Below, piece by piece: positions 59,537 through 62,902 of a stretch of DNA of 64,000 bases (positions are counted from its first letter, which is position 1; each line of letters opens with the position of its first letter). The notes below the pieces were generated by a model. It had not been told where the DNA came from and did no database searches. It worked only from the letters and a program-made list of their open reading frames with translations. The stretch lies in the NCBI GenBank assembly GCA_019234295.1, contig JAFALK010000017.1, forward strand, positions 124,001 to 188,000, in the 5' to 3' direction. The DNA comes from Roseateles sp. Its GTDB lineage: Bacteria; Pseudomonadota; Gammaproteobacteria; Burkholderiales; Burkholderiaceae_C. A program made the translations under genes and the position numbers.

Positions 59537-60202
<666 letters not shown>

Positions 60203-60236: not shown

Positions 60237-60285
60237 TTGCCAAGCTGAAGCTTCTTCAACTACATTTGTAGTACTACATTTGTAG
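60237..60285 (+). promoter_or_regulatory. BlaI-type promoter with two perfect operator copies
   Basis: CTACATTTGTAG occurs twice (60260-60271 and 60274-60285), 14 bp apart start to start. Each has arms CTACA/TGTAG, matching the TACA-N2-TGTA core of BlaI/MecI operators. A -35-like TTGCCA (60237-60242) and a -10-like TACATT (60261-60266) are spaced by 18 bp, so operator 1 covers the -10 box and operator 2 the start region. The second copy ends 12 bp before the blaI ATG. Confidence 0.85.
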
Positions 60286-60297
60286 AAGAAAATTCTC

Positions 60298-60696
60298 ATG
60301 GACGACGACAGCCCCGACATCGCCCTCAGCGACCTGCAGCTGGCCTTGATGCGCACGCTCTGGGAACGCGGCGAAGCGAGCACGGCCGAGGTGGTAGATG
60401 TGTTGCGCGAAGCCGGCCGTCCGCTGGCTCACACGACCGTGGCGACCCTGCTCACGCGGCTGGAGAAGCGCGGCTTGCTCAGCAGCACCCGCGAGGGCCG
60501 GCAGATTCGCTACCAGGCCACGGTGCAGGAGCACCAGGTGCAGCGAGCCATGGTCACGGGGCTGCTCGCCAATCTCTTCGCCGGACAGCCGAGCAAGCTG
60601 CTTTCGCACCTGGTCAGCGAAGGCAGCATCGACGACGACGAGCTGGCGCAGATGCGCAAGCTTTTGAACGCACGCAAGGGAGGCAGGCATGCTTGA
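60298..60696 (+). CDS. BlaI/MecI-family transcriptional repressor
   Basis: The 132-residue protein has the BlaI winged helix: LSDLQLALMRTLWERGEAS, TTVATLLTRLEKRGLLSSTREGRQIRY. A C-terminal dimerisation helix follows (LLSHLVSEGSIDDDELAQMRKLL). BlaI represses its own operon through TACA/TGTA dyads until the M56 partner signals its removal. Its ATG lies 12 bp after the double operator, a direct autoregulatory layout. It overlaps the M56 gene by 8 bp. Confidence 0.9.
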   Translation: MDDDSPDIALSDLQLALMRTLWERGEASTAEVVDVLREAGRPLAHTTVATLLTRLEKRGLLSSTREGRQIRYQATVQEHQVQRAMVTGLLANLFAGQPSKLLSHLVSEGSIDDDELAQMRKLLNARKGGRHA

Positions 60697-62902
60697 GTCC
60701 TTGGCCAGCTGGCACGTGAACTATCTGCTTCACAGCACCGTGCTGCTGATCGCCGCCTGGATGCTGGAGCGCACGCGCTTGGTCCGCCGTCACACGGCCT
60801 GGCGCGAGGCGCTGTGGCGTACTGCCCTGCTGGGCGGCCTGTGCACGGCGAGCTGGCAGCTGGCTTGGCCACATCTGCATGCACGGCCCGAACCGACGCC
60901 CATGGTCATTTCGGCCGCCGTGCTGCCCGGGCCTGCGGTAATCGCCGAACCGGCTACAAAAGCTGCGCCACGGCTTCAAGTCGTGACTGCTCCGGCGCAG
61001 CCTCTGGAATCATCAGCCGATTGGCGAAGCGTCGCGAGCGTTCTCACCGTGCTGTGGCTGCCGCTGGCCGTCGTCGGCCTCGTGCTGCTTGGACTTCGCT
61101 GGCTGCTGCTGCGCGTCCAGGTGGCAAGGCTGCCTGCTCACACCGACACCCGCCTGCAGTCCCTCGCACAGCAGCTGGCCCGCCGCGCCGAGGTCCGGGC
61201 TCCGCAACTGCTGCTGTCGCGCCGCTGGCAAAGCCCCCTGGTCGCGCCGGGCGGCTCGATCTGCCTGCCCGAATGGGTGACGAGCCGGCTCGACGAAGCC
61301 CAGCGCGAGGCCGTCCTGGCGCATGAAGTCGCGCATCTGCGCCGCCGCGATCCGGCCTGGCGCTTGCTGACGCAGGCCATCGTCGCCCTGGCCTGGATGC
61401 AGCCGCTCAACCGCCTCGCCGCCCGCCGCCTGGACACGCTCGCCGAGCTGGCCTGCGATGCCTGGGCTGCCCGCTCCGAAGAACTAGGTCGTGCCCTGGC
61501 CGAAAGTCTCTACGTCTGTGCCAGCCAGCTCACGCGCAAGCGTGCGCCCCGTCTGGCTGCCGCCATGGGTCAGCCGCGCTCCGCCCTGGTGGCCCGCATT
61601 CAAACCCTTCTGGAGAGCAAGCCGATGAGTGATGAACAAGCCGTCAATTCGCGCCGCCTGCCGTGGCGCCGGATGCTGTTGGCAGCGCTCCTGATCGGCG
61701 GCGTCGCCGCGGCCCTGGCACCGGCCTTCGTGCTGGACGAGATGGACCTGGGCTGGCACTGGAGCGGCGACACCCATGTGGTGGCCTCGCGCAGCCCCTC
61801 GGGCGATTGGCGCATCCAGTCGCGCGGCGGTCGGCCGGAATTCAACGAGGACGAGGACGAGATCGTCAAGGTCTCGGGCGTGGTGACGCTCACCGAAGAC
61901 GCCAAGGGCGTCAAGCGCGCCGCTGAATACACGCCGGCACCCGACGGCAACATCACCTTCATGTACAGCGTGAACGGCAAGGAGCAGGCGCTGGACGAGG
62001 CGGGACGCGCCTGGCTCAAGATCATGGTGCAGCGCGCCGCCGACGCGATGGTGCCGCCCGAGCAGCGTGCCTCGAGGCTCTACGCCAAGGGCGGCGTGCC
62101 GAACGTGATCGCTTGGCTGGCGAAGTCCAGCTCGGACTATCAGCGCCGCGCCGTCATCCAGGCCCTGCTCCAGCTCCCCGAGGTGGGCCCGCTGAACACT
62201 GAGCAGTTGCGCGCCTTGCTCGGCAGCGTGGAGAAGATGGGCGGCGACTTTGACCGGCGCGAATCCTATGTGGCGCTGATCGAGCACCAGTTGCTCGGGG
62301 CAGAACAACAGCAAAACCTGCTGGCCGGCGTGGCCTCGATGGGCAGCGACTTCGATCGCCGCACCGTGCTCGAGCACCTGAGCAGCACCCTGGTCTCAAC
62401 GCCCGAGGTGCTCAAGGCCTGGGAGTCCGTCGTCGCGCGCATCGGCTCCGACTTCGACCGCCGCACCTCCATCGAGAGCCTCATGAAGCTGGACAACCCA
62501 ACGCCCGCGCAGGTCGACGCCGCCATCGCCGCGAGCGTGCATATCGGCAGCGACTTCGATCACCGCAGCGCCCTGATCGCCAGCGTGCCGCACTTGGTCA
62601 GCGACGCGCAGATCAACGCCTACGCGCAATCGGCTGGCCGCATCTCAGGCGACTTCGATCGGCGCGAGTCTCTGGTGGCCGTGATCGAACGCCAATCTCA
62701 GATCAGCAAGGCCGGCGCGATGGCCGTGATCGCCGCGCTGAGCAATATGGGATCGAGCTTCGACACCACGCAAGTGCTCGTCTCCCTGGCTGGCCACATG
62801 CCCAACGACGCCGAGCTGCTCAACGCCTACCGCGCCCGAGCGCGCGGGCTCCCGGACCATGAGCGGGGGCAGGTGGAGAAGGCGCTCGACAGGCTGAGCT
62901 GA
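60689..62902 (+). CDS. BlaR1-like M56 metallopeptidase with C-terminal FDRR-repeat domain
   Basis: The 737-residue protein has N-terminal membrane helices (about 11-26, 42-60 and 117-141), then an M56 zinc-peptidase site, LAHEVAHLRRRDP (residues 211-223), with the Glu in ELACDAWA as third ligand. A further membrane helix lies at 327-347. Unlike BlaR1, the outer domain is not penicillin-binding. It has a beta-like segment (350-450) and then seven units of about 34 residues headed by G-S-D-F-D-R-R (481-721). It should sense an outside signal and relieve repression by BlaI. No beta-lactamase gene is linked. Confidence 0.85.
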   Translation: MLESLASWHVNYLLHSTVLLIAAWMLERTRLVRRHTAWREALWRTALLGGLCTASWQLAWPHLHARPEPTPMVISAAVLPGPAVIAEPATKAAPRLQVVTAPAQPLESSADWRSVASVLTVLWLPLAVVGLVLLGLRWLLLRVQVARLPAHTDTRLQSLAQQLARRAEVRAPQLLLSRRWQSPLVAPGGSICLPEWVTSRLDEAQREAVLAHEVAHLRRRDPAWRLLTQAIVALAWMQPLNRLAARRLDTLAELACDAWAARSEELGRALAESLYVCASQLTRKRAPRLAAAMGQPRSALVARIQTLLESKPMSDEQAVNSRRLPWRRMLLAALLIGGVAAALAPAFVLDEMDLGWHWSGDTHVVASRSPSGDWRIQSRGGRPEFNEDEDEIVKVSGVVTLTEDAKGVKRAAEYTPAPDGNITFMYSVNGKEQALDEAGRAWLKIMVQRAADAMVPPEQRASRLYAKGGVPNVIAWLAKSSSDYQRRAVIQALLQLPEVGPLNTEQLRALLGSVEKMGGDFDRRESYVALIEHQLLGAEQQQNLLAGVASMGSDFDRRTVLEHLSSTLVSTPEVLKAWESVVARIGSDFDRRTSIESLMKLDNPTPAQVDAAIAASVHIGSDFDHRSALIASVPHLVSDAQINAYAQSAGRISGDFDRRESLVAVIERQSQISKAGAMAVIAALSNMGSSFDTTQVLVSLAGHMPNDAELLNAYRARARGLPDHERGQVEKALDRLS
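62129..62851 (+). repeat. Seven tandem protein repeats (about 34 residues each)
   Basis: Unit heads are SSDYQRR, GGDFDRR, GSDFDRR, GSDFDRR, GSDFDHR, SGDFDRR and GSSFDTT, at residues 481, 518, 552, 586, 620, 653 and 688, with lengths 37, 34, 34, 34, 33, 35 and 34. Each head is followed by an amphipathic pair of helices, resembling HEAT/ARM-type solenoids. DNA identity between units is modest, so the array is old. Confidence 0.75.

Follow-up and report, generated by a model that had tools for sequence, protein, structure and literature searches.

A BlaI-M56 operon of Roseateles with a tandem operator and a predicted repeat solenoid in place of a penicillin-binding sensor

Background

BlaI/M56 switches, in which a repressor is paired with a membrane protease, have been studied by experiment mainly in beta-lactam resistance, and other M56 proteins bear outer domains of unknown input. 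What might a relative of the BlaR1 receptor respond to, and what might it control, if it has no penicillin-binding domain? The question is raised by a two-gene operon in a 64,000-nucleotide stretch of DNA from Roseateles sp. (assembly GCA_019234295.1, contig JAFALK010000017.1, positions 124,001-188,000, forward strand), which we call the window and whose numbering gives the coordinates below. Our analysis indicates that this locus is probably an autoregulated proteolytic switch of the BlaR1 type with a periplasmic input domain.

Staphylococcal beta-lactam signalling uses BlaI/MecI together with BlaR1/MecR1 (as given in parts of PMC9834060 and PMC7593790). Like the BlaI/BlaR1 and MecI/MecR1 pairs of Staphylococcus and Bacillus, the window locus consists of a BlaI-family repressor and an M56 membrane zinc protease; unlike BlaR1 and MecR1, its M56 protein has a repeat solenoid where they have a (class-D-like) penicillin-binding sensor. 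Among the literature matches listed, no open-access title or abstract opening describes such a repeat domain, or a comparable BlaI-M56 sensor with an input other than beta-lactams. The case is compact and conserved: the domain boundary is clear, the model is confident, the operator geometry is strict (14 or 24 base pairs, bp) and one copy of the domain stands free. It makes the input and control of a non-beta-lactam BlaR1 relative testable in Roseateles and other bacteria of soil and water.

Results and discussion

The repressor and the protease half

The first gene (60298..60696, forward strand, with its start codon at 60298) encodes a BlaI/MecI-type repressor of 132 amino acids, which has a Penicillinase_R domain (Pfam PF03965, 4.7e-29; 101.5 bits against a cut-off of 22.6) and matches the PDB sequences of MecI (1okr, 8.8e-09) and BlaI (1sd4, 6.5e-07). 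The second (60689..62902, forward strand) encodes an M56 membrane metallopeptidase of 737 amino acids with a putatively periplasmic repeat domain, and residues 14-306 of this protein match Peptidase_M56 (PF05569, 8.1e-22; 78.2 bits against a cut-off of 31). The end of the BlaI open reading frame (ORF) and the start of the M56 ORF have 8 bp in common, so an earlier note on this DNA, made from its sequence, was right to describe a BlaI-type repressor gene overlapped to that extent by an M56 gene.

The same note had suggested a BlaR1-like switch, and for the protease this agrees with both the predicted fold and the catalytic residues. The model of residues 5-297 has the transmembrane plus gluzincin fold of the M56/BlaR1 type and superposes on the cryo-electron microscopy structure of S. 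aureus BlaR1 (8exs_A) with Z 18.4 and a root-mean-square deviation (rmsd) of 4.0 over 249 residues at 14% identity (L014 and L037, two of the related loci described below, were left out of the structure alignments). A zinc motif HEVAH at residues 212-216 (61322..61336, forward strand) is completed by E253 and D257 (61445-61459) and R303 (61595-61597), and H212, E213, H216, E253, D257 and R303 are identical in 17/17 aligned rows, two of which are apparently one protein. All parts of a BlaR1-type active site (HEXXH, the third Glu ligand, the Asp and the Arg) are thus present, as judged by motif and by eye, and the same kind of matching suggests that HEVAH, E253, D257 and R303 form a BlaR1-like site corresponding to His201, Glu202, Asp246 and Arg294 of BlaR1, residues with roles described in PMC9834060. 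The NCBIfam model blaR1_generic was far below its cut-off (33.8 bits vs 400).

A beta module and an alpha-solenoid in place of the penicillin-binding sensor

Residues 351-737 (387 amino acids) of the M56 protein have no Pfam or NCBIfam match over cut-off. AlphaFold2 predicts with high confidence that this C-terminal domain consists of a beta module and, after it, an alpha-solenoid with repeats of 34 residues; the order in the models is eight strands, a longer helix, and then helices to the end. The domain-alone model, made from 15 aligned sequences, has a mean predicted local distance difference test score (pLDDT) of 93.6 and a predicted template-modelling score (pTM) of 0.86, and the full-length model has the same elements with a mean pLDDT of 82.9 and a pTM of 0.54. 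The predicted beta module occupies residues 357-430 (61757..61978, forward strand) with block means of 74-95 from residue 361, its first strand (357-359) lying in a low-confidence stretch of the model, and the solenoid of two-helix repeats of about 34 residues occupies residues 437-734 (61997..62890, forward strand) with block means mostly of 93-99. Along the helical part recur the seven units that the earlier note had seen behind a mixed domain and headed by an FDRR-type motif: the heads are at residues 481, 518, 552, 586, 620, 653 and 688 (in order SSDYQRR, GGDFDRR, GSDFDRR, GSDFDRR, GSDFDHR, SGDFDRR and GSSFDTT), with a degenerate head at 721, in steps of 33-37 residues.

In its predicted two-helix repeats wound into a superhelix the domain is like the HEAT/ARM solenoids (alpha-Rep, Kap121, the PP2A scaffold), and its structural matches are of that type, the best being 8rc4_d (Z 14.7, rmsd 10.1 over 283 residues). 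Unlike those proteins, it has no significant sequence match to the group. No HEAT or ARM family was found at E up to 0.1 in 15 domain members, a PDB sequence search with the whole protein gave no match at E up to 1, and one with the family profile gave none at 0.01; a search with the domain profile returned only three designed armadillo sequences at E 0.013 or worse, and the best Foldseek match of the domain alone, at E 0.0023, missed the limit of 0.001. The weak Pfam matches to CSN1_C and VMAP-M2 (both below cut-off), and to MFD_D3, the commonest among the 15 members (3/15, best E 0.00018), were taken as chance.

Could the locus nonetheless be a beta-lactam sensor, or a sensor of cell-wall damage that reads a bound partner or a peptidoglycan fragment through the solenoid? 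The staphylococcal pairs (PMC9834060 and PMC7593790, in part) are the precedent for this, yet we consider it improbable. A penicillin-binding sensor was rejected, because no such Pfam match appeared at E up to 1 and because the model shows eight strands and then helices only, which is not a penicillin-binding make-up; on this point the earlier note was correct. Two SxxK strings lie within the solenoid, at residues 513 and 597, and no penicillin-binding chain is among the 50 structural matches listed for the domain, which proves nothing by itself. A Pfam scan of ten neighbouring proteins found no beta-lactamase, most neighbours having been clustered only, without annotation, and the statement that the operon is unlinked to a beta-lactamase holds to that extent. 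The locus, then, belongs to the BlaI and M56 families and lacks the penicillin-binding sensor that defines a beta-lactam receptor.

The position of the domain relative to the membrane is suggested by a homologue that is not part of an M56 protein. A 99% complete genome from the window's order encodes the entire domain as a free protein of 441 amino acids, with a start that looks by eye like a signal peptide and with no M56 fused to it; this apparent export start supports, as does the predicted topology of the M56 protein, a periplasmic location for the domain. No BlaI match was found in that genome, nor any M56 match above cut-off (two weak ones reach 25 and 21.6 bits vs 31), which suggests that the domain can serve alone. 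In a tree the free domain groups with the Burkholderiales M56 fusions (support 95/84). L114, the other free copy, is a short fragment that resembles a relic.

A tandem operator of fixed geometry

Known BlaI operators have the form of TACA..TGTA dyads. Two identical dyads had been reported over the promoter of the window's repressor gene, and indeed exact copies of CTACATTTGTAG lie at 60260..60271 and 60274..60285 (forward strand), 14 bp apart with a TA linker. They are the only places in the window within 2 mismatches of CTACATTTGTAG, giving 4 matches (both strands counted) against 0.59 expected, a number reached in 0/100 shuffles. The promoter, as read from the sequence, would consist of a -35 TTGCCA (60237-60242), an 18 bp spacer and a -10 TACATT (60261-60266), 60237..60266 overall on the forward strand. 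The two dyads are therefore likely to cover the -10 and the transcription start region of the operon, dyad 2 being placed near the start because the predicted -10 falls inside dyad 1. Divergent from the BlaI gene is one for a short-chain dehydrogenase, with its start at 60202.

A genome search for BlaI-M56 pairs with the repeat domain, which the earlier note had proposed together with a comparison of their neighbours, yielded 37 distinct operons with upstream DNA from two orders. Left out of this count were L030 and L039 (from the genomes already represented by L086 and L087), L037 (a different C-terminus), L014 (apparently the same genome as L028), the contig-end loci L033, L093, L098 and L105, and L114 and L115, which have no M56. 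BlaI is upstream in 37/43 loci; four of the other six are at a contig end and two are without M56. All 37 operons carry a tandem operator, the best dyad pair scoring 17-20 of 20 against at most 14 of 20 in control stretches from the same loci (n=76). The spacing of the dyads is 14 bp in 33 operons and 24 bp in the other four, values that differ by ten bp, about one helical turn, and the 2-bp linker is TA in 32/33 operons of the shorter spacing. Dyad 1 is perfect in 27 operons and has 1 mismatch in 10; dyad 2 is perfect in 11, with 1 mismatch in 22 and 2 mismatches in 4. The "double perfect" operator of the earlier note is thus true of the window and not of the family, since both dyads are perfect in 7/37 operons (window included) and elsewhere one or both have 1-2 changes with the spacing held. 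Judged by sequence, TACA..TGTA dyads to which a BlaI-family repressor might bind over its own promoter are present throughout, in some operons with 1-2 changes, and the co-occurrence of tandem operator, BlaI, M56 and domain across these operons means that the parts go together. The absence of the sites from related operons would have pointed to chance; their retention in 37/37 operons of two orders refutes the idea that dyads and repeats are accidents or relics, for which we found no point in favour and which has next to no probability.

TTGC is present 22 or 23 bp before dyad 1 in 16/37 operons, and none is found within the 60 bp looked at in 18/37. Four gamma operons (L107-L110) combine the 24-bp spacing with a TTGACA just before dyad 1, a promoter read by eye, so that here the dyads would lie in the spacer and after the -10. 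The sequence TGACTTYCGG precedes dyad 1 by an almost constant 34-37 bp in 17/37 operons (L086-L106, for example L089 and L099), and a similar element in the other orientation is found in six Roseateles/Pelomonas operons; ATGACTTYCGGCC occurs 0-6 times per genome in nine genomes (reversed control, 0). A second regulator may bind at this element.

The operon itself as the only evident strong target

Where else might the repressor bind? A scan of the window genome (86.7% complete) for further sites, also proposed earlier, found the exact 12-mer CTACANNTGTAG at the window operon and before a second BlaI/M56 operon only. Among 13 related genomes it is present at the operon in 11 (positions assigned by coordinate arithmetic) and nowhere else in 10 of those, the eleventh having a second exact site between PadR- and VOC-like ORFs; the two genomes in which it is absent both have changed dyads. 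Since CTACANNTGTAG is at the operon and nowhere else in most genomes, the switch is the only evident strong target of its own repressor, weaker targets being possible. In this the locus is unlike BlaI/BlaR1 and MecI/MecR1, as no beta-lactamase or mecA-like target is evident and the strong operator is at its own operon only.

Ordinary BlaI regulons include distant target genes with weaker, degenerate sites, and the switch may do the same, its own sites merely setting its own level; this is a sizeable possibility, if one on the lesser side of even. When one mismatch is allowed, seven genomes have 8-15 sites each, own dyads included, against 142-231 for the reversed control. Twenty-eight sites were inspected among the matches listed (27 one-mismatch and one perfect), with the surrounding genes called by a rough codon-composition rule: 19 are inside called genes and 9 between them, the latter including CTGCAAATGTAG before similar ORFs in two genomes (G617 and G621). 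However, only two of the nine one-mismatch sites of the window genome are between called genes, and the 28 stretches gave no convincing common target. Nor do the flanks point to one: no third gene is common across the BlaI-M56-domain family in the compared flanks, and beyond BlaI and M56 no gene is common to more than 4/30 loci compared.

With the receptor's own operon as its evident strong target, the switch raises the more interesting question of its output. One answer is that the induced product is itself the effector, a stimulus leading to more periplasmic solenoid that binds or blocks it, with the protease and repressor as a feedback loop. We regard this as somewhat unlikely. It would account for an exact site found only at the operon in 10/13 related genomes, for the lack of a third family gene, and for the full-length, apparently exported free domain that occurs without a BlaI match or an M56 over cut-off and is placed with the Burkholderiales M56 proteins; against it, there is a single intact free copy, the L114 fragment being relic-like, and weaker BlaI targets may exist. 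A fuller version, which we put forward a shade more tentatively still, is a closed-loop guard of the envelope, in which the one strong target is the switch's own promoter, sensing amplifies a solenoid that is both receptor and effector, and in one lineage the effector half became free and exported after loss of the switch.

Genes that cluster with HMG-CoA lyase and methylcrotonyl-CoA carboxylase alpha, each cluster having one representative confirmed by Pfam, are downstream on the opposite strand in 8/15 loci, and downstream in the window genome (62953-64000; L044 2954-7878) there are, again on the opposite strand, thiolase and acyl-CoA dehydrogenase genes. We take these to be of the type named liu, and they could suggest a regulator of leucine or acyl-CoA catabolism. 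But the genes are on the other strand with no exact dyad near them in the fetched flanks, the window genome has no exact dyad outside its two BlaI/M56 operons, and the association is not seen in the compared flanks, those of Mitsuaria-type and Rudaea loci. This link, for which the evidence is one of neighbourhood only, was rejected as very improbable. AceK-like and carbonic-anhydrase-like genes, both named by eye, also lie downstream in the window genome, on that same opposite strand. A LysE-type gene is 25-71 bp downstream on the same strand in three loci, and another small gene is common to four gamma loci.

The proposed switch and the points against it

In the mechanism that we favour, BlaI dimers bound to the two dyads, which cover the predicted -10 and start region, would keep their own operon silent by closing its promoter, as sequence and conservation suggest. 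The M56 protein would span the membrane, with its zinc protease in the cytoplasm and the beta module and alpha-solenoid in the periplasm (predicted fold and topology). By analogy with BlaR1, the solenoid would bind a ligand, more likely to be a protein, a peptide or a polymer of the envelope than a beta-lactam, and this would free the protease to cut BlaI and so derepress the operon. The earlier proposal of a BlaR1-like switch with a different input stands as regards the protease half, the C-terminus that is not penicillin-binding and the conserved operators. The genes and the conservation of operators and catalytic residues are seen directly, whereas we infer the binding, ligand, cleavage and autoregulation. 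The parallel with BlaR1 extends to the TACA..TGTA dyads, the fold of the protease half and its catalytic residues.

Several findings weigh against this reading. The residues that align with the cleaved Asn-Phe of MecI (Asn101-Phe102 of S. aureus BlaI) are His-Leu here, and the region that corresponds to the self-cleavage site of S. aureus BlaR1 reads small residues or Met (both by eye), so at the cleavage sites the locus is unlike the S. aureus pair. The second dyad is imperfect in 26/37 operons. A letter-reversed 12-mer control is found 1-12 times per genome, so that a single occurrence of the operator is not rare and its location at the operon is the evidence. Finally, the structural matches of the solenoid (50 listed rows, Z 11.3-14.7) are in or near the chance range of helical repeats; such Z values are common among them, and therefore neither kinship nor function follows from these matches.

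Distribution of the domain and other BlaI/M56 pairs

The contig scan gave 15 loci: 12 of Burkholderiales with the domain, two of Rudaea, and one of Oxalobacteraceae, whose M56 protein ends differently. Whole genomes sampled close to the window seldom contain the domain. Among 59 other relatives of the window genome there is one full-length match (apparently L028's genome), and two of 299 other genomes of the window's order match, one to the beta module only and one being the free domain, so there is no other full fusion in that sample; one of 298 other genomes of a phylum sample matches. The domain is commoner in the order that holds Rudaea, with 29/299 genomes, including one that has a fragment. 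The gamma loci were drawn from a single order sample, and there is sampling bias on both the Burkholderiales and the Rudaea side. The tree broadly follows these groups, except that family f116 is scattered and one f66 row falls within f57; the branches of L104 and L113 are long, and 7/39 inner branches are open. The tree fits mostly vertical descent, without proving it.

The window operon is like M56 genes with other C-termini in its BlaI-M56 layout, and unlike them in ending in a beta module and FDRR solenoid that have no Pfam or NCBIfam match over cut-off. The second operon of the window genome (G000:C22:10448-10486; L005 6420-8170) has two CTACANNTGTAG dyads 27 bp apart, and its M56 protein ends in an STN/N0-type domain. 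A third BlaI/M56 pair (L010 1396-3107, G000 contig C46) lies behind a TonB-receptor-like gene, as judged by eye, and is without the CTACANNTGTAG operator. The Oxalobacteraceae M56 protein (L037 6001-8085) has a Sel1 repeat instead of the FDRR solenoid. In a further BlaI/M56 pair (L042 50-2013) the match of the M56 protein to the beta module is partial, and a weak Coa1-like stretch, below cut-off, follows it.

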